Source: Tachypleus tridentatus (Eukaryota; Arthropoda; Merostomata; Xiphosura; Limulidae). Taken from it: 64,000 bases of DNA. Below the pieces are notes generated by a model that was given only the letters and a program-made list of their open reading frames with translations, was not told the origin of the DNA and made no database searches. Within the stretch, counting starts at the first letter, position 1. Each line of letters starts with the position of its first letter. Location: assembly GCF_004210375.1 (NCBI RefSeq), contig NC_134834.1, positions 162,273,290 to 162,337,289 of the forward strand, given 5' to 3'. Below, one piece after another: positions 20,427 to 63,415 of the stretch. Made by a program: the position numbers and the translations under genes.

Positions 20427-20477
20427 ATGGATTCTTTGAAACGTTCTCTTGTTGTCTCGACGGTAACTTTTACCCTG
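20427..20477 (+). CDS. Gene A exon 1 (start codon, first half of TM1)
   Basis: The ATG opens 17 codons, MDSLKRSLVVSTVTFTL, ending at a perfect gtaagt donor in phase 0. The frame is chosen by phase match with exon 2 and by the equivalent exon of gene B (48110-48169). A longer open frame from 20222 overlaps it in a different frame and exits in phase 1, which does not fit exon 2. Confidence 0.72.
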
Positions 20478-23400
20478 GTAAGTATTATTCGTGTTCGAAG
20501 TTTTGAATTGAAAAGAGGGAAATAGAGACTAAAAGATTTACAAAAAAACGAGTTGGTTGTTACGTGATTAAGTGCAGTCGAAACACAATCTTCTGTAAAC
20601 GAGAAAAAAAATTAAGATCTGAGCAAGAAAGAATAACTGATTTAACAACTAATAACTTGTTGTACACAATGCTATATTTAAAAACAAACAAACATTCACA
20701 GAATAAATGTGAAACAAATGAGCAAGAGATACGTATTAAAATATATGTCCATATCCTGCATCATTAGGTATCACCTTAAAATTATTAGTTATAATAAGTT
20801 AAGTTTTACTTGAATTTTATCTCCGAAATTCATCTCACTGTACAATAATGATTGATTATATTCTTTGTTTACCAAGTAGTCATACCAAAATATTTAAGCT
20901 TAACTAACTGTTATACTGAACTTGTCTTTAATAAATTATATACACTAGATTAAGTGATTAGTTCCGTTTGTATTCCAAAACAAAGAATCCCGTTCATTCA
21001 CCACTGTTAAAAAGTATAATACGAGATAAATTATACTAACTGTAAAACAACATTACAGCACAATATACAAATTATAATACTGCTATTAAATACACTACTA
21101 CAATGCTGTTCACATATGTTTTAAGAACTATTTCTTTAAAAAAATTACTCGGAGAAAATGTTATAATGGATACGTCTTCATATAATTATTGTTTCTGTTT
21201 GACATTTTAGGTCTCAAAGCAGGAGGGCTATCTGCAACTCATATAATTATATCAATTGCATTACAAAATTGTGGGTTAAGGGATTCGACTCGTAATTTGA
21301 GGATCGCGGGTTCGAATCCTTGCCGCACCAAATATGCTCGCCCTTTCAACCATGAGGGCGTTATAATTTCACGGTCAATTCCACTATCCGTTGGTAAAAA
21401 AGTAGCCCAAGAGTTGGCGGTGGGTGGTGATGACTATCTAGCTCCTTCTCTCTAGTCTTACACTGCTAAATTAGGGACGGCTAGCACAGATAGCCCTGGC
21501 GTAGCCTTGCGCGGAATTTAAAAAACAAACGAAAAACAAAAACAAAATGGTGTGTTGCTATTTAAATACGTCTTGAAACAACTAAATAACTTAGACTCTG
21601 AACGATAATGGTGAATGAGAAAGACAAGGGATTTCTTTAATAAGAGATATTCCTACTCACGTGATAAATCTACATGAACGACATGGTTTATATGTATTCA
21701 AATAACACTCTTCACACTTTCTATAACACCACTATTGTTGGACATTTTGTTTTAGTGTGTGTAACCAAAACATCGATAAGATTCACATGCAGATACGAAT
21801 AAGGAAATACTGGTATTTCAGATTTCCCCCTTCTAATTTTACCTATTTGTTTTATGACTTCAAAATTCACTTTTCAGGAAATAATATTGTTAAGAATATA
21901 TAACAAATACAGCCTTCGGACTATGTATAAATATTTTAAATTGCATACATATACTTTCTAAGTGTACAAACATATAATACAGTCCTTACATGAATTAATT
22001 ACGTTATAAATATTCAAAAATAAATAAAATTAGTTAATATACTTCAACTTTTAAATTAAAATTTTATTCTAATTACACTTATTATTATTATTATAAAATT
22101 CAATTTATTTATTCTATAATGTTATACTTTTACTTAATTTTTATTTAAAACTATAAAACTTTCATAATTCTTACTGACTTCACACAACCAATTATTTCTA
22201 TCTTCTTATTACGTGTACTATTTATTTAAAGCAGCGCCAACAAAGTTTATAAGATAATTTTCGAAAAAATAATCGTTCATATTTTAAATTAAATTCCCCA
22301 AAAGGGAAAATATAGAAATATAGTTTTTTAGCGTGAAAAAAAATTTCAAGATACATTCATTAAAAGGTTCACTGTGATTTAGTGGGCTTTTTCGGGATAT
22401 CTAACACAGAATTTAGGTACATTTAACATTCATCGTAAATTATCTGTTTCACCAATATATAACTCACCTCAATTTATACATTCTAAAAGATATAGTACGT
22501 CCTTAGAATTGCAAGTAAATGAGTTATTAATAAACAACAAGAACAAACATTTTGTCCTTGATAGTTTTGGTATGTTTCATATAACCTAAATTACATAAAG
22601 CACATATGCACAGTTCTCTGTCACAGCTGAATATACTTTTTAGAACAATCTTTTTTAGGTTAATTCAATAACTGACATAAATTATAGGTTGCCTTCTTGA
22701 TGAAATAATTTTATTATTTCTATGTACATCTTTTAGTTTTTATCTACTATTTGTTTTAACTATATATTAACAAATGAAATATCAGTATGCATATTTGGAC
22801 AATTAGTCACAACAAAAGTATTATTTTCTCTTTAGGCTCTCCCATCTCTCTGTTTAAATGCTATGTTTTTAAATTAAAAATTTTATTCTCAGTAAGCTCA
22901 AAACCTCTAATTATAACTTTATAATTTAGTTCCAGTAACCTATTACCTCTCGTTTTTTTAATTGGATTGTTTGTTTTGAATTTCGCGCAAAGCTGTTGTT
23001 GTTGTATTGAATTAAGCACAAAGCTACACAATAAGCTACATGTGTTCTGCCCACCATGGGTATTGAAACCCGGTTTTTAGCGTTGTAAGTCCGCAGACAT
23101 ACCCCTAAGCCACTAGGGGGCTCGTACAAAGCTACACGAGGGCTATCTGCGCTAGCCGTCCCTAATTTTGCAGCGCAAGAGTAGAGGGAAGGCAGCTAGT
23201 TATCGTACCCCAATGCCAACTCTTGGGCTAATCTTTTACCAATGAATAGTAGAATTTACCGTCACATTATAACGCCCCCACGGCTGAAAGGGCGAGCATA
23301 TTTGATGCGACGGGGATTCGAATCCGCGACCCAAAGATTGCGAGTCGAGCGCCCTAACCACTTTTCTTTATTGGAAACCAAACGATATAATCTACTTGCA

Positions 23401-26400: not shown

Positions 26401-29400
26401 TTTTGATTTAGAAATATGTTCATTTCACGCGACAGAACTATTTTGAAACTATTTCGAATATTGTTGAATATTTGTCATCAATATAATTTCCGAGCAAGTG
26501 TTGTTTTTAGACAAGTAAGGAAACTTTTCAAAAAAGAACGTAAATGTATCAATCGTTAAAAAGCAATTTAAATAAGATGGCATGGATGACACTTGCATCA
26601 TCCCTACATAATAGCACATGATGCAAATGCCATCTCAACTATATTCTTTGAAATGTTTTTGAACGATTGATATCAGTTATCACCACATTCATCTACTCTT
26701 TAAAAAAGTTTTTCTTTATTTGTTTTTAATGTAGCGTTTCAAGAGACATATAAATGTTGTATTTATAACGAAGTCTTAAATACGATGAGGTTCCAACTGT
26801 AATATTTATTATTTATCTGTTATTGGCTTGTTATTCCTCTATTTAAGCTTTTTAAAGGAACACTAAATTTCTGCAGGAAAGCCGTCTTCAAGGGGTAATT
26901 ATGGTATCTTTTGCACCAGAATTATCATCATTACTTTAATTACTACTAGTTAATAATACATGTAAAGGCGGATACTCCGTTTGAAACTATGTCATCTCAG
27001 TGAAATTGGTTGACACCATTGTTTTGGTTTATGATGTATAATGTAATACAGAAGAAACAAGAACAAGAACGTCAATTTTTTTGTTATGATATTCACAAAC
27101 ATTCTCAAAACTTGTGACTCGGTCATTATATACATACTGTTATAAGGGAAACACTGATGACCTATTGAAGATGTATTAAACATACCATTTTGATGAACAG
27201 TCCGAGCCGCCCCTACATCTACGTAGACAGTGCTAATGCCTGCCTGATAATTTAGCGTTAACTGGACTTACCGGCATTATTATGACATTATGTCTGTACT
27301 AACTCTTGGACATAACTTTGAATTTATTTATGAAATCAGTCACAACTTTAAAATTATGTAATCAAATTATGTTTAGTTTGTTTCAGAAGTTTGTACTCGT
27401 TTGGTAAAACGTTTGTATTGTCTCCTCCTTAATATGTGGATACCCTGGTTAAGGGACAGTGGTGCAGAGATTTGCACAATCTCCCTTATATATATATATA
27501 TACCTGTAGCAAAACCAATCACTCATGTAGATAATCTAGAATTGTGGGATACCACATTGGGACCCTGGTCTGACCGAAAATATGGCATTTCATATAATAA
27601 ATTTACTTTTTCAACAACCAGAATTTCAAAATGACATCCAAATTAGTCAGCAGAAAATAAGTTCCAGAAATTGTGAACTGAGGTAAATCCTGATGTAAAT
27701 TATCAAATAGGCAATAAAGATTGTGTTGTGTTACTTGACAACTTTGGGTGGTTTGAGCAAAAGAGATTGTGTTGTGTTACTTGACAACTGTGGGTGTTTT
27801 GAGCAATAAAGATTGTGTTGTATTACTTGACAACTGTGGGTGTTTTAAGCAATAAATATTGTGTTGTGTTACTTGACAACTGTGGGTGTTTTAAGCAATA
27901 AATATTGTGTTGTGTTACTTGACAACTGTGGGTGTTTTGAGCAATAAAGATTGTGTTGAGTTACTTGACAACTGTGGGTGTTTTGAGCAAAAAAGATTGT
28001 GTTGTGTTACTTGACAACTGTGGGTGTTTTAAGCAATAAATATTGTGTTGTGTTACTTGACAACTGTGGGTGTTTTGAGCAATAAAGATTGTGTTGTGTT
28101 ACTTGACAACTGTGGGTGTTTTGAGCAATAAAGATTGTGTTGTATTACTTGACAACTGTGGGTGTTTTAAGCAATAAATATTGTGTTGTGTTACTTGACA
28201 ACTGTGGGTGTTTTGAGCAATAAAGATTGTGTTGAGTTACTTGACAACTGTGGGTGTTTTGAGCAAAAAAGATTGTGTTGAGTTACTTGACAACTGTGGG
28301 TGTTTTGAGCAAAAAAGATTGTGTTGTATTACTTGACAACTGTGGGTGTTTTGAGCAAAAAGATTGTGTTGTGTTACTGTGGGTGTTTTGAATTGTTTGC
28401 TACTGTTGATCATTTCATTCTTCTGCGAGTAAATATTTCTGAATCTCTCACATTTTCTATCTTTTAGCTTACAGGTCCCAATCACTATACATTAATTAAC
28501 AAAGAAACAGTTTTGGTAACCAAGGATTTTTACGAAGTTTATTTTGAGTGCGTTTTTTTGTTTAACTTGATTCTGTTTGCTGTTATTTGAGTAAATCTGG
28601 ATTATTGAGAACTATTTTTTAATCTTCACATAACCGATTTGTTTTATGTCGTACACCATTGCTGCGATCCACATATTGCATCATATTGGGTAGGTTTTTG
28701 TTCTAGCTTATTACAGCATTTACTGTAAAGAACTGACCAACAAAGTGAGTGAAACCGTTCGTTTAACTGAAAATAGAAATGAGATAAATCACAATACTGA
28801 TGCTGTTTTTGTTCCAGTTTTATGTGTGTTATTAGATATTCTATAACTGACAAAACTGGACCCACAAGTAAATTGATGTATAAAAAGGTTATAAAATATC
28901 CGTTTAAAAAGATGGTTACATCACATATTTAAGATACGGTTGAGAAGCAGGATGCTACAACTCAGGTTAAAGTAAAGCGCGAGTTATACTTTTCCTTTCT
29001 TCAGAAAACAAATATGTTGTCAATAATCAGTTTTAAAAAGAAAAGTAAGCGTGCACTGACTGCAACGTTTATCGCTAATAAAACACACGCACACTTTATA
29101 AGTTAGTGATACGTTTGGTTTAAGAACTTAACGCTTATGTAAACAACATCTTATAACATGTACTAATCTTGTTTGTTTGTACATGCTTCACGTATCCTAC
29201 AGTTTTACGAACGAATGTCATCGCTAATCTTTTTCATTGACATATAAAGATTGTTATTTTAAATCTGCAAATTATCAACCAAGTGTGTGTTTTTTTACAC
29301 ATTTACATCTTCACAATTAAAGTCACAAACATATCAGGTTTTAACCCAATATTATTCTGATTATTAAGAAAATTACAGGTTCCTGATTGTTGCATTCCTA

Positions 29401-32400
29401 CATTACGATTAAGAAAGCTGAAGAAGCCCATTATTTTGTACGATATTTTGTTATATAGTACTCACGTAATAGACGTACAAGATACAGTTTAAACCGTTTG
29501 TTTTCTTAAAAAAATATTTGATCGAAATCAAATAGGTTTTGCAGATTGTAATATTTTTCCATTTCTCCCACCCTCAAAGAAAAATACAAGTTTCATTTAA
29601 CGAATCTTTCCAGGTGGAGAGTATATGGAGCGTTATATGGAGTCTTTGGGCTATGTTGTTGTTGGAGAATCCTCAACCATTTATCACCGGTAAAAACAAT
29701 TCTATAGAAATGATAGCCGAATCTTTCAAGCAATTGTTATCAGAAGAAGATGGTAAGAACCAGTTTTCGTCTCTGTACAGGGTACAAAGTCCATAGATAC
29801 TGTAAGAACTATGATTATCAGACTTAAAACGCTATATGTAAAAGTACGATTCAGCATGACTTCACCGAGTTTTGTGAGTTGAAAACAAGTATTAAAATCA
29901 AAAACTAAACATGAGGTTTTATTGACTTTAACAAAAACATGTTTTTTAAACGTGTGTTATACTGAGTGTTTAAGTGTGAAAATACAAGTAGCTTGTGGTA
30001 TGATGGCAGTCGACTTGTATTTCCCAGTAAGAAGAGTAATGGGTTCGAGTTCCGTAGGTTTCAACTTTCAGTTGTTCTGAACTTCTTCAAACTTCGCTGG
30101 AAGAAGTTACCACACTTAAATTTCTTCAGTGATATCTCTGTAGGCCTTGTTTGGTGATTTGGACTTCGCACAGCAATAGAATCGAAACACCGATTTAACA
30201 GTTTACCTGTACGACTGAATAGGCTTTAGAGAGCAATACTCATTTTCTTGTCATTAAAATAAGCTAATCTAAATTAAACACAGATAATTATGTTAATATT
30301 CACATCAAAAAGAAAGAGAGCGATACATTATAATAACATCCTCCATCTTGGATGTCGTTAGTTTTTTTTTAATTAATAGCAACTAGGTTAAAAACAAATA
30401 CCCATGAACATAAAAAATAAAACAAACAAACAAACAACACACACACAACTGTATTGTTGGAGTGGTAAAATGCGACCTATAATAAGTTATTTCAATTCTC
30501 CAGATTTACTCTCTTTCCGCAATCCTCGTGGTCGGAGCACAGCCTAGTAGTTAACTCCCGTTTTTGTTTCTTCAGCGAAAAAGCTACACATTGCATCATG
30601 TCTACCGCGAGGAATCGAACCCCGGAATGTAGCATTGTCATTTCGTAAACTTATCACTGGATCTATCGGGTGACCAGGTGGGTAGTGTTCCGGACTTTGG
30701 ATCTGAAATTCTGTTTTGCGCTTTGTTACCTAAAATAAGTAAATGAAAAATGTACTACGCGGTTAGGGGCCGTGGGTGTATTAAAACAGTAACAGTCAAA
30801 TCCAACTGGATTTGCACGATTGCTGGTAGGTACTTTGACTAGCTACCTTTCCTTTAGTCTTTTAAAATTATTTTAAAATTAGGAACGACTAGTGCTTAAA
30901 ATCCTAGAGTAGCTTTGAGCACAATTCAGCAAACAAACAAGCCTCATACGTCAAATTAATTAAACAATGTAATTTAAAACTCGCATTTTTAAAAGTAAAA
31001 TGTAATTCTTTATTTTACATTATTTACTGTTTCACTAGCCTAAATAATTTAATCTTAAGACTGACAGGGAAATTACAAACCGGAAAAATAAAAATTATGA
31101 ACGATTATGCAGTTTGTATTTTACTCTTATTGTCTTAACAGCCTAAATATTTTAAGTTTCTGTAAGTAATCAAACAGCTACGTGAACGATATAGAAGCTA
31201 GAATGCCATCCGTAAGATTTATTTATCGCCCTACCCGTATCAAATACGTTTAGTATCTTCCTTATTAACCGCACTTCCTCGTCTTGTTTGATTAATACCA
31301 ATTACATTCCAATAAGCAACTGCACACAATTATCAGGTGAGATTATAGCACTGCCAATTGGTTTATTCTTACAACACTAAAATTCGAGATTCGATACCCC
31401 GTGGTGAAAAGTAGGCACATAGTCCACATCCTTTGTAGTTTTTCGCTAAAACAACAACAACAACAAACCTAGCACTAGTTTTAGAGTGTATAGTTTTATT
31501 TGTTCTGTGGGTGTAATGGTAGATGTTTTTTGCTCACTTGTTTATAACTTATAACGTGTGTATGTTATATATTATGAATTCATAACATAATTACATCAGT
31601 ATGAATGATGTAAAACTCCTAAACAAGCAAAGCATAATACTTAACTTAGCAATGTGTGTGGCATTACTACACATTTAAACTTCTCTTAATATTTTTGTTT
31701 GTTTGTTTGGAATTTCGCACAAAGCAACTCAAGGGCTATCTGTGCTAGCCGTCCCTAATTTAGCAGTGTAAGACTAGAGGGAAGGCAGCTAGTCATCACC
31801 ACCCACCGCCAACTCTTGGGCTACTCTTTTACCAACGAATAGTGGGATTGACCGTCACATTATACACCCCCACGGCTGGGAGGGCGAGCATGTTTAGCGC
31901 GACGCAGGCGCAAACCCGCGACCCTCGGATTACGAGTCGCACGCCTTACGCGCTTGGCCATGCCGGGCCAGTCTTAATATTTATTACATTCTTCTTTATT
32001 GGCCCAAGTCAGGTTTCCCATAAAAAGTATACTTTGTTCACGTGCACAATTTTAGTTGTAAATAAACACAATTTATACACTTTGTATATATATTAAAAAC
32101 ACTTACTGAGTCAGTAAAAAATGTGTCAATAACATTAATAGCAGTCTTATTGGGAGACAAAGAATATTTCCTCATTGAATTACGAGAGGAATAAACATGG
32201 GAAGATAATATGTAAAAATATAAAAAAAATTATCCAATTCAAGTAAGATAAAACAAGCGATTAATTTACACTAACACAGCCAGAAAACAACGTATTTCAT
32301 ATCTTAACTACTCCAAACACTGAAACCACGATTTGTAAACCTATATTTTTTTCCTTTTCAACTGATTAAGGTATCTTTGTATGAGTGGAATCTGAGTTTC

Positions 32401-35400
32401 ATATTTACTCTTTCTATATAAGAAGCCTTACCGGTGCTGTATCGAAGAAAACTTTCTGTATGTCTGTGAACGCATCTCCTTTTAAACGAGTTGACCGATC
32501 CAGACGAAACGAGGCGTGCTAATTTAATAGTCCAAATACAAACCAACTACATATGAAACTTTCCCATACATTCAAAAGTAAAATATTTTCCGCAATAACC
32601 CTTATATCGTTGCTGCAATAGCTATTATACATAGTAGAGTTCGAAGAAAACTGACATCACAACAACATTCTATAAGTTAAAGACTGTAAGTAAAATATTC
32701 AGCATTTTGGCTTATATTCCACACTAAACAAATAAAGTAAACCTCTCAAACAAATGAGTCAGTTTGCACATTTTCTATATTTAGTAATGAATATTTTTAA
32801 GGTATGATATTCAAAATGACTATTATTATTTAATTTTGGTCGTTCTCAAAACTTTATCATTACAAAATATTCAATGAACTGATTGTTGTTTTAAATCATG
32901 ACAGAACTTTTATGTTGTTTTTTTTGTTTGTTTTTTAGCTGAGAAACAGCGGGTCAATTCTAGAAGTAAGGATCATAAACAATATTGATCACTTTAGATT
33001 TTGCGTGCTACATTCAGTATTAAAAATTACTGACAAAAACTTTCATAAGTGGATTGAAATGCGTTAATCTGAAGAGAGACCTTTCCAATACAGTGTACGG
33101 TTAAAATATGGAATACACTACTCCAATAACATCTATAACTTGTATTTCAGAATAAGGTCTAAAGGTTGCATATTTCGTTTATTGCAGTTCACTTTGGCTT
33201 CGTCGTTTTCGAGATGATCCTAAGCATATTTTGGGCTCTTTGTGGGATTTCACTTCTGTATGGATATTTGGTAAGCCTTTATTGCAAATAATCTGTTTGA
33301 AAATACTTGGCCCAAAAAATTATTATTTTTTGTACTTAATATAAAAGCTATAATAATGAACCTCAAGAAAAAATAATTGTTATATCATGCCAGATTGCTG
33401 CATTACTCATGGTTATATTAATTAATGAACACACACGGTTTTAATGATAAACGTGTCCACAAGAGAAAAAGGTATTTCCCTTCATCCATAGTACGAATAT
33501 GCATTGTCTTCTAAAATTGAAGTTAATGTAATTTTATTATTATTGAAGTAAACATATTCGGATTTCACAAGAGTTATTATTGTTTTTAATAAACAAGATA
33601 ACATAATATAACTTTAAATCGAGCTGTAGCATATAACTTTAAATAGAGTTGTAAAATATAAGTAACTCGGTGAAGGCACTTTGATAAAACAAGCATTTCT
33701 TGTACAGTTATTATTTTTTCATTGAGAAACAGCTTAGGTACATATACCATTTTCAACATTAACTCGAATAGTGTTTCAAAAATAAGATGAATATACAGCA
33801 TGCACATACGTGACTGTAATGAAATAAAGATATTTTATCCTGACAACAGGTACTATAAACAGATTCAAACAGAATGTTGACTAAAAGTTGTATAAAACAA
33901 CATTTAATTTCAAGTGAGAGAAGAACACTTCAACAAGTGCGCCATAAAGTGTTATCTTTCCTCTCGGTAAGTCTGAAGGCTTATAACACAAAAAATTCGG
34001 GTTTCGATACCTACGCTAGATACCTACGTCTCAAATAGCTCATTGTGTAGCTTTGTGCTTAGCAATAAATAAAACAAAAAGGTTATCTTAAAGTAGTTTT
34101 GCTTTTTAATATCAGTAAATTCAGAACCATTAAAGTAAACATACTTATCCACTAAGATCGGCTGATATAATACAAGTACAACCTACTATTTCTATTGTTG
34201 TTGAGCTTAGCAATTAACATGGGTCACAAGATTTATTTACAAAGCTACTTGAGAGCTATCTGTTCTAGTCGTTCCTAATTTAGTAGCGACAATCTAAATG
34301 GAAGGCAACTAATCAACGTAACCTACTGCCAACTTATGGGCTACTCTTTTATCAACGAATAGTGGGACTGACCTTTACATAATAACGCTCCCCACGGCTG
34401 AAAGGTCGAGTATGTTCATTGAATAGGATTTGAACCCGTGACACGCAGGTTGAAAGCTCTAACCACCAGAATTTACGGAATATTGTTTTCTCTGTTCTTG
34501 GAATAAACAGAACATTTATTAATATACGATTATAAAAATATTGACTGTAGCAACATAGAAAACGAACACGAGAATTACACTGACGTAAAATGTCGTTGAC
34601 TAAAGTTTTAATTCTAGACAAAAACACGACGTTCTACTGATTTAAACATGAAATTTGGCCGTTACTTATCGAAACAAAGAAATAATTGGTTGTTTTTATA
34701 TATATCATTATACTATCTTTGATATAATTCATAAGCTTTACAAATCCTCCAAACAAAAAACAGGCATGATTACCTGTTAAACATTAAAACAAACAGAATT
34801 GTTATACTGGTTAAAACATGGAACTAGAACTAATGCTGTAAATCAAGAATGTTCTTGTAAGCGGAGTTCATTACTGCCACGTGTGTATGCAAGCATGGAG
34901 ATCATTTCCACGCAATTCTGAAATATTATACAAGATGAGCAAAACCGAGTGAAGATTATAAAAAAAATGTCATTATTGATATAGAATACTTGAAACGAGT
35001 TTTACGAGTACCAGAGCAGTCGAAAGAAATGAAAAAAAACATAATTAAATGAACAGAGTTTGAGCCAATGTTAATTAAACTTTACTAGACTCGTAAAAAA
35101 TTCTCCACATTTCTGGTACGATTTACTCCAGTCTTCTCACTGTAGTCAAGTGTGTTACAAAGGTTGTGCATTGCTTATTCTGAAGTGTACAGATCTGAGT
35201 GTAGTTTCAAGCCAAATCTTTTAAATACGTCGATAAAATAAACTCTCTATTGAGCAACGTATGTTAAAACAACTATATACATAATATATATCATTTTATT
35301 TCATTTGAAAGACACTAGCAGTGCTGACTTCCTGTTCAGACGAGTATGTAAAGTTTTGGTATTTGGTCTGCCAGTGTAATATAACTTATAGATAACAGAG

Positions 35401-38400
35401 TACATGCAAGAAGCTTACAACAGTTTATAGCAGACCACTATAACCTATGACATATTATTTAATGGTAGAAATGTCCCTCAAAAAAGTAAATCTTTCTTTA
35501 TATTAGAAGACATATTGTATGTGTTACTGTTAATGTTTATTTTGAAGACATACATTGAATAAATCGGACAAAATTATTATTTTTTTAGTCAGTTAACTTG
35601 TTTGTTTGCAGTTAAGCTCAAAAGGTACGCAATGGGTTATCTGTGCTGTATCCTCCACAATTATCGAAACCCAAATTTTAACATTTTAACTCAATAAACT
35701 TACTGCTTTCCCACTAGGGTACAATATTATTGGTAGATAATACGTGTATGATTCCCTCTTGTAAAAATTTCAATTCAGTAATTATTTACTGGCAAAATGT
35801 TCTACTATTCTAAACATTGAACTTCTTGTTATCCTATTGACACTAACATTAGTAGAGATTCATTAATATCGAACTATAGTTACTGGTTTGGGTGTTTTAC
35901 TTTCTCTAGTAGTTTTCACTTACCGTGTTAAGTGTATTAGAATTGACCGACGAGATATGAGTAACAGAAAGAAAATCAACAACAATTATGTTGGTTCACA
36001 GTTGACGATAAATTTAAAATATTAATGAGCCGCAAGTTATATATATTATTGATAATCATTTCACAAAAATTGCTAATGAGACAAAATTAGAATCGTGTTC
36101 AAATATTCAGCATAATGCATCCATTAAATATCTTTGTTTAAGAGCCAAAACTTGGGTTAAAGATTTGTAGATTATTTGAGTGATTTATATATGCCAATTA
36201 AATACGAGTAATCACAAAAAGAACAAATTCTAACACTTTAGTATTGTCCTATAGTGAATAAGAAAGGCATTTGATATTTTGTTTCCCCAAAACAACTAAA
36301 GAGTTTGAAATTTTAAAACCAATATATTAGTGAAGTACAAGTTTAGAAAATTCTTATTTTCAAAACGTGCACACCTTGTTAACTCTTCGTGCTTCGAATC
36401 AGAATTAATTTTGTCTCATAATATTTACGAACCAAAAATTATGGAACATCGCATGTTTTTAAAATAAGGCGTGTAATAAGTAAGGGCAAGAAGTTGACAA
36501 ATTACGACACTAGTTACGCTTAGAAATATAAATTATATATTTCATTTAGTACGATAATACTACTTAAAACAAATAAAATACTGAAACAATTTTAAATCTT
36601 GTTGGTTGTTTAAAAATAAATATATTGAATTGATTATTTTATTACTGTTTAATTTCAAAACACTTTCAAAAATTATTTCATTGGTAATATGGTCCCTAGG
36701 TTTAAAACAAACACGATACTAAATTACTCATTAATCCTCAAATGTACACTCAAGTACTGTCTGAAACTACTGTAGGAAAATTCAAATAAACTACTTCTGT
36801 AAGCTTTCGGTTTAAGCTCCAGCGTTCGGGTATTCAAACAATATAAGGAATGATCCTGCTTCAGGCAGAGGCCAGTTGATGCACGCTGCTACATGTAGGA
36901 AGAAGGCAAATTAATATTTCTTTGTGCTATGCTCATTTTATTTTCTGCCAGCATGTATATATATGAATATTTTATATTTTGTATGCATTATAATTTCCTT
37001 TAAAGTTGTAACCATTGTTGTTTTATCGTGATTTCAGAAGAAAAATATTACCTTCGTAATTCCGTGGATCGTAATAACTTCTATTGTTCTTCTATACGAT
37101 ATTTCTACATCTGTCTTCTATCTGAACTTACTAGTGGTAAGTCTATACCACATTTCTTAAAAATAATACCTAGATTTATTTAAAAGCATAGGATTTAAGT
37201 CTGAATCTTAGGGTTCCTAAAATTCTAATGAGACTTAGTTTCTCCGTTCAGGTAAATGGAATTTTTGTACATTTTTTGGCTAGTGTTGCATGGTCTATCA
37301 CAAAAAAATACAACTATGTTTCTGAAACTTTACAAAACTTCATATAATTTCTTAGATCATTACAGTTATACGTGAAGAACACAGTCACATAAAGAAGCAG
37401 AAAATTACAGTTTACTGAAAAATTGAAAATATCAGTTCCTCGGGCAGTAGTCTCAGCAAACAAATTCTCTTGGCAGAGGATGAAATCAGTAAATATCAGT
37501 TAACTTGAAGAGTAGGTTTACTATACATCACTTCCTCCGACAGAGGGCTCACTGAATATCAATTCCTTCAGCAGTAGACCTACTTGCCGTTAGTTTTCTT
37601 AGCATAATATTAATCAGACATTAGTGCAATGAGTTAGAAACATTTATGGTAATTCATTTTGAAATAAGTTCACTGGATATAACTTGAATATAACTGACAG
37701 CAGGTTTACTGAGAAGTATTCATCTCGGTAAGTTCCGGCATCATCTGATCTTATAGTAAATCTCATTAGGCAGTAGTTCACCAAGCAGTAGTTTGCTTGT
37801 CCTTTCAGATTATAAAATAGTAAAATAATTATATGTAGTTAAAATAATCAAAGCAGTATTCTAAAGTTAACTAAAGGAAAGGCACAATGATGAAAACTGA
37901 GATTCTGTTGAAACACAAAGCTTTTGATAGATAAGTTGGGAAAGCTATTAATGTAGGGATTTTATTTTCCATGTAAAGTCGAGATGGCTTAGTGTGTGTT
38001 TTCTTATAACAAAGCCACTGCCGTGTCCATCTACGGAAATCGAACCTCTAATTGTAGCCTAGTAAATTCGTATATTTAATGCTGTCCCAGCGGGATGCAG
38101 GTGGCTTACTTTGCTAGGTAATTATTAGCTAAATCAAGTAACATGTCTGCTTTTATCTTTATCTTGTTTGGTTTCTTTTTCAAGTTTAGTAGCTAGTCCC
38201 ATATAGATTTTTTTTTTATATTGAGATAATTTCCTTCCTAATGCTTCTTTGTTCACTTTTTTTATAATTATAGTATAGGTGGGTTTACTAGGTGTTAAAT
38301 ATCCTGTTGACACCTAAATGACCTCCCATGGGGAGTACATTTCAATTTTAAATTTATAATATATGGTACTTGCCAACAAGATTGATACATATAATTTTTT

Positions 38401-41400
38401 TTTCATAACACAAATATATATATATATATATTTTAATATACAAACAACAATATAAATTCTGATAACGGTTATTACAAATAACGACTTATATGCAGAAGTT
38501 TCACTAACTTGCAAACAATACTGAGTCTTCTGTCTGATCTGAAAATGAATATTGTATCGCCGGTTCACGAGGAGCGAATTAATTCTACATCAATACACTT
38601 CACTTTACGGGAAGCTAGCTAACTTCTTTACACGAGAGCTTTTTGTTTCTTTTTCTCCCGACGAAAATATCTAATGTCCTCCTATAAATACTGACATCTG
38701 GAGTTAATTCACTGAAGTTAAGCTGTTTGTAATGTTTGAAATCTATAAACGTTCGTGATCAAACATCTGTAGTTTCCCGATTGATAAGTATTGATCACTA
38801 TTATAGCCTGCGATGTTTATAGCATACTAACTATAGCAAACCAACAACAGTATCACACTGTCTCTTGGCGCATCGTTTTATAAAGTTTTAGAGTGAGGTT
38901 TTCGAAACTTCAGTAGGCAACAATAGTCTAAGATACGCTAGTGCTTTCGTAAGACATATTTGCTGATTCTTGCATTCAAGAATCTTCTTCTTCTGCACAT
39001 TTAGAGAACAAGCGGGGCTTTCACAATACGTATTTAACAATATACATTACACGCATTTCTAAATATATATTAAACTGAAACAAACATAGATGCTAAAATA
39101 AATATGTAATAGTAAATCCGTTACATAGGTTACAGAGTGTAATCTAAAACTTTATAACTTTTGCATACAATAATAATTAAATAGATAGTCAAAATCGTGA
39201 AGACTCTCTTGCTCTATCAAATGATGAAACTATAACTTAACTATGAGAACTAGACAGGAGCTATGATTGTTGAAAAAAGGAGATGATCAACAAAATTATG
39301 AAATCTCGCTTTTGGCTATTTGCCATTTTTCAACTTTGGGATGCTCTGGATAGCTGAATAGCGGCATATACGTTGGAGTTTGAGCGACTACACCTGGTAG
39401 GTCTTCATAATCTAAGTTCTATTGACGTGTAAACAACAAAATCTGCATGACTTTTGTATTGCTTTAATACAAGTGTCCGTGTCGTCCCGAGCACACTCTC
39501 TGATACTTTGTAACACCCTAGCTTGATTTACCCTTGATAATACTCTCTCTTATATGACTTTTTTTACAACTTATTCCTTGTAACACTATGTCTTGTACAA
39601 CCGATAACAGGATACAAACCATTAATCCTCTCCCGGTCCTGGGAGGGCAAAAGGTGGAAGTAAATCCAATTTTTCAGAAGAGTGCCTTTTGAAAGCAATT
39701 AGAAACTATGATTAATCGAAGACATGCTTTTTCCAGAAAATGTCTGCAATCAGAGTGGCAACGTAGACTTAAATATGGGAAATATGGGCAATAAAACAAA
39801 AACGAAACCGATGTGAGAATTCAACGGTTTAACAAACAACTTACATTATCCATTTTTTTTCAAATCTATGTTCAGCTGCTGCATTAATTTCAGAATCTTT
39901 ATCAGCTTATAGCAAGTCTTTATTTGGAAGAGTGCATTTTACCCTTCCTTTATCGGAGATGTCCTCACTCCAGACCCACCATATTTGCTATTTCTAATGT
40001 ACTTATTTATTTATAAACATAGATGTTTCAAAACTAAAAACAAAAGATCTGAGACTCAATTCGTGCCACTATAGTGCCCACTGCATTAATACAAGCTTCC
40101 ACACGTTGCAGAGGACAAACCTGACCTCATTTAGGAGGTCTACCGTTTTATATTGCTACCATATTATAAGTAGAGTTACAATCTGGTGAGTATAAATCGT
40201 TTAGATCTCATAAGTTGCCACTGAACCCACTGTAACGATTTTATAAACATGTCCAAAATCTGCACGAGATAATATTAAAAAATAACCAACCATAATCACA
40301 CTTGTGATCATCAACAATTATTATTTTATTTCTAATATGATTTGAAGTGAACTTTAGAAAATAGAACAGTACAGCACAACTTCCTCTCTTCAGAAGTAGA
40401 GATAATAATTATCAAAACTCTACTTCCACATTCTTAATGATAGATTTGGTAGTGTCTATTATCAAATCAGCAGAATGGTAGCCAAATTTTATTGACTTAA
40501 AAATCAAAGAAAACAAATAGATATTAATTAAAAAGAAAGATTAAAACGTCATTCGTAAGAACTACGGTGTAATATATAAGGAATAGATTAAAATACCACG
40601 AATTATAGTTAGTGTTAATGATTTCAAATACAGAGGTCAATTACACTGAACACAACACACATTCAGTTAATCTAACTTTGCCCTTGTTTCAAATTTAAAA
40701 GGTAAAAATGAGTAAATGCCATTGTGTTATTATCTCTAAGGCTGTCACAATTTATTTGAAAGGAATGTATAATAAGTGGCTCTGTTATCTTATCAATAGA
40801 GTTCTTTGAAAAAACAAGCAGAAGATACTTCCGTTGAAACAATAACGAACAATATCGCCCTCGTCTTCCTATTATTAGGTTTCTCTCGTTTTGGAATAAC
40901 TTTCTTGTGCATCAATGTAAGTGTATTTTACTAATTAGCAAACTAAACAATAGAATTAGTTTCGTTCCTTCTAAATAGAACCAGTGAGTGATCTGATGAT
41001 AGGCATGTTTAAGATTCTAACAATGACCAAGATCCGCGGTTTTTCTGGTATCTTCACGATATTTTTACTGCAACTGTTTACGTGTTCATTTTTTACTTTC
41101 AACCAGTTTCATGTCAAGTCAATCACTATGATGAAAATGGTTATTATGAGTAAAACTGTATACGAGAACAACAACAATTCTGTAGTTAGCGAACAGAACG
41201 ATACACCAGTAATCTGGGTGTGACTGTATCCGTCTTCATGTTTTAATTGTAATAATTGATTATTTTTATGATCTGGAAAACACCAAAGAGAGAAGCGTGG
41301 TACTTCTCTTTCTTTGCAGTGAGAATTATTATAGTTAAACCTTATTTTATGTCAGTGATTCTTCCCACTTGCAATAAAGTCTGTCATCTAAGTGGTGTAT

Positions 41401-47230: not shown

Positions 47231-47500
47231 CATGGCCAGATGGTTAAGGCGCTCGACTCATAATCTGAGGGTTGCGGGTTCGAATCCCCGTAACACCAAA
47301 CATGCTCGCCCTTTCAGCGGTGGGGGCGTTATAACTTTACGGTCAATCCTACTATTCGTTAGTAAAAGAGCAGCCTAAGAGTTGGTGGTGGGTGGTGATG
47401 ACTAGCTGCCTTCCCTCTAGTCTTTCATTGTTAAATTAGGGACGACTAGCGCAGACAGCCCTCGTGTGGCTTTGCGCAAAATAAAAAAAAACAACAAACA
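47231..47500 (+). mobile_element. 275-bp family SINE, full length
   Basis: Complete head (GGTTCGAATCCCC) and AACAACAAAC tail. The flanking duplication is unclear. Confidence 0.88.
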
Positions 47501-47838
47501 TTTTTATCTAGGACCGCTCTCTACTAAAAATATGTAATTACGACACCGAATGTGAAATACATTTGTTTGTAACCATCTCTGTACCAGTAAGCGTGGAATA
47601 GAAACTTCACAGCTTTTTTTGAGTCGAAGTAATTTACAGCGATCAAACGTAATTAATTGATAAGCAACAATAAAAGAGAATGGGAAAACCTGACGTACTC
47701 ATCGTACAGAATGAATGTAAAAATCAGTACTTTAAACACAGTCAACAGAATGTTGTTTTAGTTATAATAATTATGTGTAAAGAAATGTATACATGGGTTT
47801 CATTCACTCATAGCTTTTCAGAAGGTATCTGGTGTATA

Positions 47839-47868
47839 TTGTCCAATAAGTTTAAGCTTATTGGACAA
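47839..47868. repeat. 12-bp inverted repeat, 6-nt loop
   Basis: TTGTCCAATAAG and its exact complement flank tttaag. Confidence 0.9.
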
Positions 47869-48109
47869 GAGAATTACTATTATCACTCTGTTCATCATAC
47901 AGAGGGATTATAAAGTCCAACGTAGTATATCAATAATGAAGCGCTCTTTCTTTTATCTGACTCGGTAAGCAAGATACAACGGTAAACGGAGCTTCGATAC
48001 TATCAGTACTAATGTTGGCTTTTCAATCCTTCCCGAAAAGTTGAAAACAAAAAAATTCGAATTACGAACTTTTGCGAGTGAAACCTGACGTTTTGTGATT
48101 TGAACAGTC

Positions 48110-48169
48110 ATGTCATGTTGCGGATTTTCCCTATACATTTTAACTGTCAGTGCTGGCGTTTTCACAATA
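48110..48169 (+). CDS. Gene B exon 1 (start codon, first half of TM1)
   Basis: An in-frame TGA at 48101 precedes the ATG. 20 codons end at ATA|gtaagt in phase 0. It is parallel in position, length and hydrophobicity to gene A exon 1 (shared SL...TV pattern). Confidence 0.7.
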
Positions 48170-57100: not shown

Positions 57101-60100
57101 TATGCGAATTAGATCAAGTTAGACTAATTAGTAAATAATTACATGTTTATTCAAATAAAATATAACTTTAATTTAAAAAAAATGAAAATATTTTCCTATA
57201 TTTTCCCCTTTAAAGACCAATTCCACAAATTTGAATTTATATTTCGAAATCTGTAGGAATCCGAAAGTACTTGTAATGTGGTTAAGAGGGACATTGTGTA
57301 ACCAATGGTAACACGATTGACTCGTATCTTTCTTTGTGAGGTTTGGCATCGCAGGCATGAAACTGATGATATCTTCAAGCAAATTTTAAGAATATTTCTG
57401 GGTTTTCACATTTAATTTACTACATTGTCACTAGATACTTTGTATATTTCTGTGTGTTCTTATAGCAAAGCCACATTGGGCTATCTGCTGAGTTTACCGA
57501 GGGGAATCGAGACCCTGATTTTAGCGTTGTAAATCCGTGAACTTACCACAGTACCAGTGAGGGACAGATACTTTGTACTGGCTTGATGTCTTGCAGTTCT
57601 TTTAAATACATAGGCATACATGTAATGCTAGACGCCCCCCGCTAGTACAGCGGTATGTCTCCGGATTTACAACGCTAAAATCAGGGGTTCGATTTCCCCT
57701 CGGTGGGCTGACCAGATAGCCCGATGTGGCTTTGCTATAAGAAAACACAAACACACACACACAGTAATGCTAAAAATACTTCGTTGTTTCGAAAGCAAAA
57801 TAAATAAAGAATATTACTTTTCATTTCTACATATTTTAATTTATATTTCTGAAATCAGCGTTAAAAACTACAATTAGAAAAAAAAATTCTATTTGAACAC
57901 ACTGCATGAAACAGAAACGATCTCAAACCTCAAATAAGATTCGGTTTAAAAGATCGCAAGATAATGTTAAGAAACGAGAGCTAAGTACGCGACGCTAGAA
58001 AGAAAATCATAATTGTTTTACTATATATTCACTGTGCGTGCGTATGTGTTTAGTTTAATTTTAAGTAAAATGTTCTTTAATTTCAGAAAATAAAAAGTAT
58101 AATAGTAAAGCCATAACAAAAACGTGTGTTGTAGATTTATGAGAACCGCCAGCCATTTAGTTTAGTTCAAATATGAAGAATAGTTTGACAAATGGACGAA
58201 GCCATATAGATTTATATCAGTTATATCGTGATAAGTCTTCACTTACAGATTTCCTGAGCGATAACGGTGAATTCTAACAAGAGAACTAGAATTCAGTCTT
58301 TAAAACGACTATAAGTTTTTTTTTTCTTAATAAGATATAATATACCCATTGTAAGAAGCCTATTCAATAGCCTTTACAAATCATTCGTATTCGTTGCAGA
58401 GTACGTCGCTGCGTATCATTGTTTATAACTTTGTTCCATTACACTTATGACATTGTATTTTGTGTATTATCTATGCGATTATTTTACAAAACAGAATATG
58501 TTGTTGCTTAACTTTTCCAAGACAAAAGAACTAACAAGAAGTACATATATAGAGATTATTAGAGTTTACATGAAGAAAATAAGAGGGAATCCTCAACAGC
58601 CGCGGCACTTGACTTTCTGTTGGCAGGATTGTAGTAAATTAATCTACGAGACCTTTTCATTAGCTACGTATTTCTGCGCTAGCTATACCGAGCATGGGGT
58701 ACGCGAATATTCGATTCGATTTTAGTACTCATCAGAATCTGTACCAGCCTACCCTCAAGTTGCAATTCTTTAAGACAGGTTTAGAATAAATCAATCTATG
58801 AAACGTTAAGTGTGATCAATTACATCAATTGAAAGTGTTTGACCTCTTGAGTACAAAGGTGTGATTAAACTTCAAATTGGTCAAGAAATGGCAGAGCTAT
58901 AAGCTAAAAATTATTCTTTGAAAAAAAAAAAAAAACTCAGCCATTCTATGAGCTGCTATGTCGCGGATAAAAGTTATATTTCTGCTTCATTACATTAAAA
59001 TTAGAAGTGGCTGGATTAACCTGGATGAAAAGAGCAGGCAGATATTTTCGCGGAACTCTTACTTTAATAATTACTTCAAAGTCCTCATGACTGGTTGTTA
59101 ACTAATCTGATGTATTTTTCTTATATTTCAGCTGGAGAGCATATTTGGGATTTCCTGGGTAGTCATGGTCTGACGTTGATAGACACAAACCCAAATGAAA
59201 TTGAGTACAGCGCTAGTGAAGGTACGTAACAATTTTACTCTTCTCTTAAAAACCCGGAGAAAAGGAAAAAACAAAGTGAGTAATATATACTGATATATAA
59301 TAATGAACATACGAGTATATGAATGAGTGAGAAAGATACCTGATACAAAGAGAAATAAATCAACTATAATAATCAACCAAAATTAGGGAATCGATTCCCG
59401 TCGGTGGACACAGCAGATATCCCGATGTGGCTTTGCTAAAAGAAAATACACACACTTAACAAAAACATTTATATAGCTAGATAACAATTCAAGTTACATT
59501 TAGAACCAAGAACAAGGCGATTAGACCTGTAACCTATGAACAACTGTTTACTTAATTTAGTACAGAGTCGCATAATAGAATGTCTACTCTATGCCCACAA
59601 GTTCATAAACGTCCCTCTGATACACCAGAGAATCCTATGAACAAAAGCAACCACGTCTCGAATAAGAACGAGCTGAAGTTACATTTCGGACCAAAAACTT
59701 TATGAGTCATCACTTCTAGAATCAGGAACACGCCTAGCCATCACATCTAGAGTTTGAGAACAAAGGGAGTTACATCAAGACACGAAGAACAAGATGAGCT
59801 ACATCTAATGCCCGAGAGTAGGATTAGTAAATACTAGAAATTGAGAACAACAGAAATCGCGTATAGAACTTAAAACAAGATGGCTTAAATATAGTATAAG
59901 AAACAAAGACCAATGAAATCTGGAGTTAATAACAAAGTGGTTTATATCCAGAAGTTATGAATGTGATGAAACGTACCTATGAAATAAGAACAAGACGAAT
60001 TATTTCATAAACATAAGAACAAGGTGTGATGTATTCTTAAAATGGAACGAAAAGATTATTCTTAAGCCTAAAAATGGCAGGTCAAGTCTCGAATCTAATT

Positions 60101-63100
60101 GTTAGGTATGATATGTTAAAAAACTGAGAAAAATACTAAAATGTCTAAGAACACAGCAGATATGTTTCCGAATCTGTTAACAAGGTAAGATATACACCTA
60201 GAAACAGGGGACAAGGTGGGTAAAGTCTCGAACCTAGTAACATAATATGACGCAACTAATAACGATGAAAAACTCTTGTTTACAGTACGAGCACGTTTAC
60301 AATTAAAACCACGAACGACCCCCAGCGATTTGGACAATTTGATCGAAAAACCAACTAAATGTTTTTCTGTAGACGTGTTTTAAGTAACGTTCAAAATGGC
60401 TGAAAGCTACCACTGCTATTCATAGTGATATTAGACGTTCAATGGAATATCTAAACCAGCATCATTGCATGGTTCAATGTTAACACATAATCTACTTGAT
60501 AAAAGATGTTTTATGCATAACATGCATGGCGTAACCTTCATTTGACAAAACATTGTTTACTCAGAATGATTAACTGTCTTAAGTCCATTATCAAAGAAAG
60601 CAAGATAACCAGACATTTTTGAGAAAGAAATATTTCATAAAGAAAAAAATTAAACATACTTACTAGTCGAAATTATGTTTGCTCTCGAACACGTCTTAAA
60701 CTGTTCCTATGGCAATAAAATCGTTATAAATCTCTCCATTAAGTATCCAAACAGATATCTTCTTATTTCTATTCACAGAGGTAAGTATATCAACTCACCG
60801 TTCAAATAAACGTCAACGTGTGTATGACATTCATACTAAAAGGACACCAGTTTCTCCAAGGGAACTCGAGATTGACTTGTGTGCCTTAAACGTAGCGCGA
60901 TTTAAACATTTCATAAACCAAGTAGAAAATAATTATTTTAATGATAAAATAGTTTCTTTTAATTAGAAACGGAAATAATTTTACACGTCACATAAAGTGT
61001 TTATAAAAATAACAATTATTTTCATGACGTGCAGTTTTGTAGAAGTGATTAGCTAACAAAACAGAATCATTATTTTAAACATTACCGCTGTAAAGTTCAT
61101 TTATTTTTTCGGTTTCTAGCCACCGTATTTTCATATGTTTATCTTTTTTTTATTGCAGTGGATAAAGCTATAATAATAGCAACTGTGGTTCTTAATGGCC
61201 TGTGGCTCGTAAGTGCAATAGCCCTTCTTTACGGCAACTCAGTAAGTTTATAATCACTTGCAAGCTTAAAATATTATTTTTCATTATTTAAATTTAATAG
61301 GAATTAATGTTATCAATTTTTACTTAATTTAAACCAATCACAGATATCTTATCTACAATTGTATAATTCTTGAAGAAATAATTGTTACAAAAGAATCTTC
61401 GACACAAACACACTACAGTACAGAATGTTTGTTTTTGAATTTCGCGCAAAGCTACTCGAGAGCTATCTGCGCTAGCCGTCTCTAATTTAGCAGTGTAAGA
61501 CTAGAGGGAAGGCAGCTAGTCATCCCCACCCACCGCCAACTCTTGGGCTACTCTTTTACCAACAAATAGTGGAATTGACCGTCACATTATAACGCCTCCA
61601 CGGCTGGGAGGACGAGCATGTTTGGTGCGACCGGGATTCGAACTCGCGACCCTCAGATTACGAGTCAAACGCCTTAACACATTTGGCCATGCCGGGCCCT
61701 ACAGTACAGAAAACAGTTATACTTGTTTTTTTTTTAAAATGTATAAAATAATAGACACCAGATTTCTTAGTAAATAGTTTTGGTTTAAGAACAATTAATT
61801 TATGTTATAATAGATTATATAATTATTGTTATCTGCGGACTGTTATAATATTAAAAGATTTTGCCGTCAATTTTTCAGTCAAATCGAGAAAGTGATAGAG
61901 CGTTTAAAATATAGCTAAAACTATACACAAAAAAACAATGATTTTTCATTTAAAGATAAGTCTAAAGCCGTGGCTAATAATTTATCGTTATCTGCTAGCC
62001 ATAGAAAGTACGACTATCTTAAGTGTATATATATATTTTTAAAGATAACACTTCATTTCGAGAGGTGAACATTTATTTACAAGTACAGAACTATGATGAT
62101 AGGCGTTATTTTTTAATGTTATATCATTTTTTTAGTCCTATGTGTTTTGTACTATCGTCAGTTATGCGTTTTTAAAATATATTTTTTCGAAGCTTTAGTA
62201 TTGCTCTCATAAAATATTTCTTCGAAAAGAGCCTAAGTATTTAAAAACTTATTTTAAAGATAAATTTAACTTTACAAAGAATATTATACAAGTACAATTC
62301 ATTAGTTTTGTTGTAATAAAGATACTCAAATCGTGATAGAAAAGAACTGTGTATTTTTCTCTTATATGACAACTACAAGAAATTAGGGCCAGCAAATGCC
62401 TACACGAAGCAACAGTGTTTGTGATACTGGCAACAAGACATCATTTATTAAGATTGTCCTCGTATCATCCACCATACGATAAGGCTTAACATACCAGTTT
62501 GGGAAAGCATAACTGCAACGTTGTTTAGTGTTACGGAAATGTTCAATAAATGATACACACACATTCAACATAAGCACCAACTGGTTAAGAGTCGATTCAC
62601 GTATTCAGGAAAACTGAAAGATTTTATTTTCCTTTTCTCAAGAGTACTATCAATGAACTCGAAAACCCTCCAGTTTTACAAGTGATTTACACCTTTTATT
62701 GGTGAATTGGATTTTATCGAATAACTTCACAAATTAACTAGAAATCTTTCATTTTGTTGTACAATTACAAATTCCCCTTTCATTTAATAATTAAAACCAG
62801 CATTAAGTAACAACCAGACATTGTAGTTACTGGCTTTTAAATGTTTATTATTATTATTGATAAACAGCTTAATCATTTGGTTTCGTTATCATGCTACAGG
62901 TGAAATCCAAGGCTCTAATTACATTCTGGATGATTATCACAATTATCATGATTCCTTTCAAAGCTGCAGAAACAGGATACTATGGATTCAAACTACAGGT
63001 TTGCAATGTTATTTTATCAGTACCGTTGGCATTGCTGGTAAAAAAATACATTATAGAAAGTATCTAAAAATAATTGAAATTTATTCTGTTTCATCTGCAA

Positions 63101-63415
63101 CAAGCTCGTTTTCAGCAATGTTTAATTATCTTTCACTCGTTGTATTATAGTACCTTTTCTACCCCAGGATTTACCATATAACTCAATTTTGATTTATATA
63201 ATTTGGAACAATTTTATCTGTATTGAACCAGTATCGTTTAAAAAGATTAACAATACAGTTTTTACTTATGTATTCTAATGCAATAAACCAATTATATTTT
63301 ACAGAGCATCATTAAGTCCAGTAACTTGACTGTGGAACAAACAATCAGGAAAAATCTCTCCACCTTTTACTTGCTTATATGTTGTTCTATTGGAACAACC
63401 AACATTCTATTTAAC
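48110..63415 (+). CDS. Gene B: tandem paralogue of gene A, partial, apparent frameshift
   Basis: Exons 48110-48169, 59132-59221, 61159-61241, 62900-62998 and 63305-63415; it continues beyond the window. Exon order, lengths (83 and 99 nt identical) and phases follow gene A. It encodes TM1 (MSCCGFSLYI... then LESIFGISWVVM), a short first loop, TM2 ending ALLYG, TM3 and the start of TM4. The N-terminal Cys-Cys is closer to LAPTM-like proteins than gene A is. Exon 2 enters in phase 0 but must leave in phase 1, and its 90 nt cannot do that. A stop (TGA at 59171) appears after 13 codons, while a one-base shift restores an open frame to the donor. Either the gene is damaged, the sequence has a one-base error, or an unseen exon changes the phase. 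The first intron is about 11 kb. Confidence 0.65.
49515..49630 (-). mobile_element. 120-bp family SINE, diverged
   Basis: 'aaaacaaagccaccttgtg' and 'catcgaaccccaaaattcca' retained. Confidence 0.6.
50221..50340 (+). mobile_element. 120-bp family SINE
   Basis: Almost consensus through the head and core, with a short tail. Confidence 0.88.
50510..51010 (-). mobile_element. Jockey-like LINE fragment (RNase H end and C-terminal Cys/His motif)
   Basis: On the minus strand VPYMDYGPVF (cf. IPYxDLKP), WQSTWSEQRENKLFQIK, KEEVVLTRL, then after a frameshift CSLCNTQITISHILLSCHRY, the C-x2-C-H-C motif usual at the end of Jockey-clade ORF2. Only this 3' piece remains. Confidence 0.8.
51390..51500 (-). mobile_element. 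120-bp family SINE, diverged
   Basis: 'gagcaaagccacattggact' and 'agcccgtagacttatc' remain in order. Confidence 0.6.
51896..52020 (+). repeat. 54-bp tandem repeat, about 2.3 copies
   Basis: The unit contains 'accttggcgccctgagccat' and 'gtaacgtttgattatttaca'. The first two units are nearly identical. Confidence 0.92.
52217..52426 (+). repeat. 35-bp minisatellite, 6 copies
   Basis: The unit starts 'attgctttacatagacctta'. Only single-base differences between copies. Confidence 0.97.
52685..52870 (+). mobile_element. RTE-like reverse transcriptase C-terminal fragment
   Basis: TKTKVMV followed by SFFLGSYKSKSGTNSKEMHRR matches the KTKxMV ... F.YLGS ... EI.RR pattern found after the catalytic box of RTE-type RTs. 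A short relic. Confidence 0.6.
53027..53280 (-). mobile_element. 275-bp family SINE, head partly deleted
   Basis: Reverse copy. The segment between the B box and the end of the head is shortened. Confidence 0.88.
53862..53948 (-). mobile_element. 120-bp family SINE, tail missing
   Basis: Head and core only, ending 'taccagcggggtacc'. Confidence 0.75.
54155..54330 (-). mobile_element. Probable very old 275-bp SINE relic
   Basis: 'gctgtccctaattctgaagt', 'ggaaggcaaccaatca' and 'ggattgactgtcacgt' occur in SINE order. Confidence 0.5.
55183..55453 (+). mobile_element. 275-bp family SINE, full length
   Basis: TSD CATATTTTTGC at 55172-55182 and 55454-55464. Confidence 0.94.
57445..57565 (-). mobile_element. 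120-bp family SINE
   Basis: TSD AGATACTTTGTA at 57433-57444 and 57566-57577. Confidence 0.92.
57631..57763 (+). mobile_element. 120-bp family SINE, near consensus
   Basis: TSD GTAATGCTA at 57622-57630 and 57764-57772. Opposite in orientation to the copy 66 bp upstream. Confidence 0.92.
59132..59221 (+). CDS. Gene B exon 2, frame broken
   Basis: Acceptor tatatttcag, donor gtacgt. In phase 0 it reads LESIFGISWVVMV then TGA, aligning with VESIWSVIWSLWA of gene A. From about 59168 the open frame is shifted by one base (LTLIDTNPNEIEYSASE), aligning with the LLLENP region. Confidence 0.65.
59390..59456 (+). mobile_element. 120-bp family SINE, 5' truncated
   Basis: Begins at the B-box-like GATTCCCGTCGG and keeps the CA tail. 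Confidence 0.8.
59490..60250 (+). repeat. Highly degenerate tandem repeat, about 35-50 bp period
   Basis: Variants of 'gaacaagatgagctacatct' recur at irregular spacing (59511, 59787, 59875, 59987, 60017, 60180), with linking 'ctagaa' or 'cgaac' words. Confidence 0.6.
61159..61241 (+). CDS. Gene B exon 3 (TM2)
   Basis: Acceptor tttattgcag, donor gtaagt, 83 nt, phase 1 to 0. It encodes DKAIIIATVVLNGLW and ends ALLYGNS. Confidence 0.82.
61242..62899 (+). other. Gene B intron 3
   Basis: Contains one young SINE. The rest is AT-rich with no recognised feature; a minus-strand frame at 62383-62580 has no support. Confidence 0.6.
61426..61698 (-). mobile_element. 275-bp family SINE, full length
   Basis: TSD CTACAGTACAGAA at 61413-61425 and 61699-61711. 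Confidence 0.95.
62900..62998 (+). CDS. Gene B exon 4 (TM3)
   Basis: Acceptor atgctacag, donor gtttgc, 99 nt in phase 0. It encodes VKSKALITFWMIITII and continues to GYYGFKLQ. Confidence 0.82.
62999..63304 (+). other. Gene B intron 4
   Basis: 306 bp, AT-rich, nothing recognised. Confidence 0.6.
63305..63415 (+). CDS. Gene B exon 5 (loop, start of TM4)
   Basis: Acceptor ttttacag, donor gtaagt, 111 nt in phase 0. SIIKSSNLTVEQTIRKN aligns with SSLKKQAEDTSVETITNN of gene A exon 6, followed by a hydrophobic stretch with two Cys. Confidence 0.8.

Follow-up and report, generated by a model that had tools for sequence, protein, structure and literature searches.

A head-to-tail pair of four-span membrane protein genes in the horseshoe crab Tachypleus tridentatus and its paralogous pair on a second contig

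Described four-span families and the horseshoe crab gene pair

The Pasiflora family of Drosophila comprises Pasiflora1, Pasiflora2, Fire exit, and six further members, and the pasifloras are described as proteins of 169 and 258 residues with four transmembrane segments (TMs), both ends inside, and a larger first outer loop; PW opens TM3 in all members of the family, TM4 ends with VxSQYQ in Pasiflora1 and with a shorter VxS in Pasiflora2, and the two fly pasifloras are mutually just 15% similar (PMC4582180). In a 64,000-nucleotide stretch of the Tachypleus tridentatus genome (contig NC_134834.1, here C10; C10:162273290-162337289, hereafter the window, whose coordinates are used below unless a contig is named), we examined two plus-strand genes, A and B, that form a head-to-tail pair of a single four-span family, for which these fly proteins may be the closest lead. 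An earlier note on this DNA had proposed such a pair and interpreted it as a local duplication of a LAPTM-like gene. LAPTM/Mtp proteins carry C-terminal PPxY motifs, tetraspanins have a Cys-rich large TM3-TM4 loop with CCG, and the first loop of claudins contains a W-C-C motif. Horseshoe crabs are reported to have undergone three rounds of genome duplication, and assemblies measuring 1.7 Gb are described for them (PMC7815833); the genome searched here amounts to 2.17 Gb in 205 contigs.

In exons 3-5, genes A and B are identical at 26/100 aligned columns of the joined pieces. Their alignment scores 100, compared with 16.2 ± 11.5 after shuffling that preserves the hydrophobic/polar pattern (0/5000 reach 100), and the local duplication proposed earlier is upheld. 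A genome search with gene A returned 11 matches at E ≤10 (seven in the window, two on contig C3, and two others that are weak). The C3 matches are collinear and on the minus strand (E 0.022 and 0.82), and they led to a second pair, genes C and D, in the same order as A and B; the earlier note had suggested looking for further copies outside the 64 kb. Identical residues in exons 3-5 amount to 46/92 for A-C and 36/97 for B-D, and to 25/97, 26/89, 21/96, and 26/90 for A-B, C-D, A-D, and B-C, respectively, and for each of the six pairs 0/1000 shuffles reach the score. Nonsynonymous (dN) and synonymous (dS) divergence are 0.41 and 2.43 for A-C and 0.56 and 1.32 for B-D, dS being near saturation in both cases; dS is undefined for A-D and B-C. 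Because A is nearest to C and B is nearest to D, the tandem duplication preceded the split of the C10 and C3 loci. Thus, A and B are a head-to-tail pair of one four-span family whose tandem duplication is older than the C10/C3 duplication. Short exons spread over 23.4 kb might be taken for open stretches that arose by chance, given that single exons prove little, but the exon plan is common to four genes at two loci and none of the shuffles reproduces the similarity; the paralogues largely refute this explanation, to which we assign next to no probability.

Gene A, very probably a real four-span gene, is open throughout and consists of eight plus-strand exons at 20427-43816, with seven introns that are all GT-AG and exon phases that agree. 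Exon 1 (20427-20477, 51 nt) contains the start, MDSLKRSLVVSTVTFTL, and leaves in phase 0; exon 2 (29614-29752, 139 nt, phase 0 to 1) encodes the remainder of TM1 and the first loop; exon 3 (33188-33270, 83 nt, phase 1 to 0) encodes TM2 and LLYGYL; exon 4 (37038-37136, 99 nt, phase 0) encodes TM3 with IPW; exon 5 (40800-40916, 117 nt) encodes the second loop and the start of TM4; exon 6 (42361-42429, 69 nt) encodes the end of TM4 with VTS; exon 7 (43077-43365, 289 nt) encodes a Ser/Arg-rich tail; and exon 8 (43788-43816, 29 nt) encodes the final residues and the stop (43816). The 83-nt phase 1-0 exon with LLYG, the 99-nt phase 0 exon, and the 117/111-nt exon that had been described for the pair were all recovered, except that LLYG does not end its exon, as two more residues precede the donor (LLYGYL in A and LLYGNS in B), and the gene A model had been incomplete, requiring exon 2 and the three exons after the 117-nt one. 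That such genes are thinly spread and easily missed holds as well, with 876 nt of coding sequence (291 residues) in 23.4 kb being the figure for gene A. By hydropathy only, the protein peaks in four regions (about residues 7-35, 62-92, 90-127, and 134-180). Its last 105 residues are hydrophilic and include 19 Ser and 16 Arg, and no PPxY was found on reading the tail sequence, as the earlier note had stated.

On C3, gene C lies on the minus strand with exons of 51, 142, 80, 99, 105, and 78 nt, and gene D lies downstream of it with exons of 60, 145, 83, 99, and 138 nt, the phases of both being as in gene A. Both are open in the exons found. Exon 4 measures 99 nt in all four genes, and KDLL closes exon 6 of gene A and its counterpart in gene C. 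Exon 1 of gene D (MGCCGCSLFAFTVIAAVFAL, 60 nt) was clearly the best among its candidates; that of gene C, 51 nt with the phase seen in gene A, ranked third by similarity and was picked by eye for its length, and a possible exon 6 of gene D (C3 107972685), also picked by eye, is uncertain. Exon 1 of gene A has no clear counterpart by sequence on C3 (best E 1.4), and a counterpart of its tail was not found in 100 kb of C3, including gene C. Exon 2 of gene A has homologues in gene C (E 1.4e-6) and gene D (E 0.018), and it is these paralogous exons, not Pfam, that support the choice of 29614-29752. Pfam failed as an arbiter, since one of five wrong exons (20573-20708) outscored the chosen one, giving 24.8 bits for DUF7027 against 19.5 in the 186-residue protein without the tail and 18.2 in the full 291 residues. 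When 12 exons (eight from A and four from B) were compared by blastn with the window and 80 kb downstream, none had a second match at E 0.01, implying that they do not belong to a local repeat, and Rfam gave no match.

Two further occurrences of this family were observed. At C3:108444296-108481228 (+), about 430-500 kb from the first copy on the same contig, exons 1-5 of gene D and exons 5-6 of gene C recur in inverted orientation, near-identical but not fully so, reflecting either an inverted duplication of recent date or a haplotype left uncollapsed. At C10:15245406-15245591 (-) lies a relic of exon 5 from an A/C-type gene (E 0.017 with gene C; profile E 3.2e-7 in the fetched 10 kb), with TT for GT at the donor as judged by eye.

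Gene B and its frame break

The gap from the gene A stop to the first exon of gene B is 4.3 kb, instead of the roughly 1 kb given earlier. Exon 1 of gene B (48110-48169, +, 60 nt) carries the start, MSCCGFSLYILTVSAGVFTI, and leaves in phase 0 like the 51-nt exon 1 of gene A, in line with the claimed likeness of the start exons; it is backed by exon 1 of gene D, which also has 60 nt (MSCCGFS in B and MGCCGCS in D). Exons 3 (61159-61241, +, 83 nt; TM2 with LLYGNS), 4 (62900-62998, +, 99 nt; TM3 with TFW, not PW), and 5 (63305-63415, +, 111 nt; second loop and start of TM4) share the phases of gene A exons 3-5 and are close to them in length. Exon 2 (59132-59221, +) has 90 nt, vs 139, 142, and 145 nt in A, C, and D, respectively, and is out of frame: it reads LESIFGISWVVMV and then TGA, so that only 13 residues are open, and its length leaves a remainder of 0 where the phases require 1. 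Similarity to gene A exon 2 alone did not find it, and single queries with gene C and gene D gave E 2.1 and 1.1; a profile built from exon 2 of A, C, and D located it (E 0.031, with the runner-up outside gene A at E 1.5), and its assignment combines this weak profile score with a correctly positioned acceptor of the required phase. No match to DUF7027, DUF4728, or Mtp resulted when four wrong candidates for exon 2 were put into gene B; PNTB_4TM appeared with one of them, at E 0.46. A search of 80 kb past the window, which used only similarity to the end exon of gene A and the uncertain one of gene D, revealed no convincing end exon. Of the gene B proposed earlier, the 83-, 99-, and 111-nt exons are therefore retained, and a complete open gene is not, given the frame break in exon 2 and the missing end exon.

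Because exon 2 is out of frame and reaches TGA, gene B is probably a pseudogene, barring an indel in the assembly. The alternative that gene B is functional, with the break being an assembly error or bypassed by splicing, draws on exons 1, 3, 4, and 5, which are open and have good splice sites, and on a B-D dN (0.56) below dS (1.32); against it stand the short, frame-broken exon 2 and the lack of a convincing last exon in those 80 kb. Moreover, the stretch 59132-59221 is single copy genome-wide, hence there is no second allele or other genomic copy for comparison. We consider a functional gene B unlikely.

Family assignment and competing explanations

Pfam scans were run with a maximum E of 10, the HMMER filters dropping most matches above about 0.1. 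Without its tail, gene A matches DUF7027 (PF22954; E 0.00096, residues 61-125; 19.5 bits vs a curated cut-off of 27) and DUF4728 (PF15860; E 0.11, residues 76-147; 13.6 bits vs a cut-off of 26.7); with the tail the values are E 0.0023 and 0.26. Neither family is listed for C, D, or partial B. None of 10 pattern-keeping shuffles (five of A and five of D) matched DUF7027, DUF4728, or Tetraspanin (best E 0.11, to another family), suggesting that the Pfam scores do not reflect mere hydrophobicity. Like members of the Pasiflora family, these genes encode four TMs in highly divergent paralogues, PW opens TM3 in A (FVIPWIV) and C (YAIPWIV), and a VxS (VTS, without QYQ) closes TM4 in A, which at 291 residues compares with 258 in Pasiflora2. 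The TM3 Trp is common to all four genes, and the preceding Pro occurs only in A and C. Differences from that family include the Ser/Arg-rich tail of gene A, the lack of PW in B and D and of VxS in C, and an ends-inside topology that is assumed for A, the comparison being with published motifs. It is plausible, though not proven, that pasiflora/DUF7027/DUF4728-like tetraspans are the closest lead for the four genes, with C, D, and B each failing part of the comparison. Six-frame genome searches with DUF7027 and DUF4728 gave no match at E 0.001 and six at E ≤10; gene A was missed at both thresholds, so nothing follows about the absence of the family elsewhere. By eye, two of those six loci are tandem repeats and none resembled a family member. 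No relative was retrieved by a PDB sequence search with gene A and the four-gene profile, and a literature search found no paper on DUF7027 and one on DUF4728.

The LAPTM-like identity put forward in the earlier note was not supported. A small gene of several exons and a product with four TMs would suit LAPTM/Mtp endolysosomal proteins, both features being generic, but the PF03821 profile, the search proposed at the time, is not listed for A, partial B, C, or D, the nearest profiles to gene A being DUF7027 and DUF4728 instead; there is also no PPxY in the gene A tail, and PF03821 has its matches at two loci elsewhere in the genome, not at the A/B locus. Those two, at C6:97.10 Mb (26.9 bits, cut-off 25.2) and C10:98.98 Mb (23.7 bits), are both weak and contain internal stops, as read through introns would give. 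A LAPTM/Mtp-like nature of A and B is thus highly improbable. Tetraspanin resemblance is confined to gene D (PF00335 at E 1.6e-4 and CC near the start), A and C not being listed, and gene D has no Cys in the TM3-TM4 loop. Claudin/PMP22 proteins are alike in topology, but they are not listed for A, C, or D, and the first loop of gene A lacks Cys.

Considering these results together, we tentatively favor, at not quite an even chance for the statement as a whole, a tandem pair in which A is a pasiflora-like protein at septate junctions, B is decaying, and the C10 and C3 loci arose by whole-genome duplication. Tandem duplication would first have made an A-type/B-type pair, and a later duplication, which we infer to belong to the reported horseshoe crab whole-genome duplications, would have yielded A/B on C10 and C/D on C3. 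The gene A product is predicted to be a small membrane protein. Both of its ends are assumed to lie inside, its first outer loop would be the larger one, and its inner, 105-residue Ser/Arg-rich tail could bind inner partners or undergo phosphorylation. The protein might work like the Drosophila pasifloras, packing beside other spans within the lateral membrane, and thereby contribute to barrier formation at epithelial or glial septate junctions. Gene B would be a copy in decay, unlike its counterpart D, all of whose known exons are still open.

A number of observations weigh against this. All Pfam matches of the four genes fall below curated cut-offs; the best match of gene C is DUF7807 (E 0.029) and that of gene D is Tetraspanin (21.8 bits vs a cut-off of 32.1), whereas partial gene B and a consensus of all four genes, its open positions written as X, match no Pfam family, and one wrong exon 2 lifts the DUF7027 score of gene A to the 24.8 bits given above. 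TM3 starts without PW in B (TFWM) and D (LMWM), TM4 of gene C ends in VKR without VxS, and the break in gene B could stem from an assembly error. With respect to a duplicated block, the tail exon (10323-11099) of a large receptor gene upstream of gene A matches C13:159.56 Mb (E 0.008) better than C3, where it has two equally weak minus-strand matches (108.196 Mb and 108.553 Mb; E 0.03). The two equal C3 matches and the better C13 match weaken the argument from conserved neighbors, which would be a weak one.

It is also possible, though on the doubtful side, that the genes form a tetraspan family of their own, distinct from pasifloras, tetraspanins, claudins, and LAPTM proteins, with the tandem pair kept through genome duplication. 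Consistent with this, Pfam links the four members to different families or to none, always below cut-off, Trp in TM3 occurs in all four but Pro before it only in A and C, and PDB holds no sequence relative; opposed to it are IPW at the TM3 start of A and C and VxS in A, and the limited similarity (just 15%) of the two fly pasifloras themselves (PMC4582180). A more specific form, a separate arthropod tetraspan family whose tandem pair came through a whole-genome duplication, the PW-bearing A type gaining the long Ser/Arg-rich tail and the B type surviving on only one of the two duplicated chromosomes, appears rather unlikely. Under the pasiflora-like reading, should gene A prove to be a junction protein, this little-studied group would be extended in chelicerates. 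If the C10/C3 split reflects a horseshoe crab genome duplication, A/B and C/D would be a small case of differing fates: gene A is fully open, C and D are open as far as their exons were found, B is broken in this assembly, and an exon relic lies elsewhere on C10. The A/B pair is real but fairly ordinary; its analysis corrects a likely misfiling as lysosomal LAPTM and provides exon-level models for genes with <1 kb of coding sequence in >20 kb.

Neighboring sequence and repeats

Upstream of gene A, the plus-strand regions 655-1809 and 10323-11099 encode EGF repeats (Pfam), a hydrophobic span, and the cytoplasmic tail of a large receptor, which we take to be a Fat-like cadherin. Its tail exon lies ~9 kb upstream of gene A and has six genome-wide matches at E ≤1, itself included, with copies of 62% at C6:30.80 Mb and C10:14.74 Mb; the latter is 0.5 Mb from the exon 5 relic at C10:15.245 Mb and on the opposite strand. 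Both C3 matches show 43% over 40 residues with TAA inside, and the one at 108.196 Mb lies 159 kb upstream of gene C on the same strand. No counterpart of the receptor exons was found in the 130 kb of C3 examined, the weak genome-wide matches lying outside this region.

Several repeats were also observed in the window. An open frame at 14724-15068 (-) resembles the N-terminus of a mariner-type transposase. A 260-nt repeat resembling a short interspersed element (SINE) occurs at 17 places, including the query at 61436-61705, and the 16 others are 71-90% identical. Tandem repeats are present at 27711-28378 (46-nt units) and, just past exon 5 of gene B, at 63563-63837 (50-nt units).

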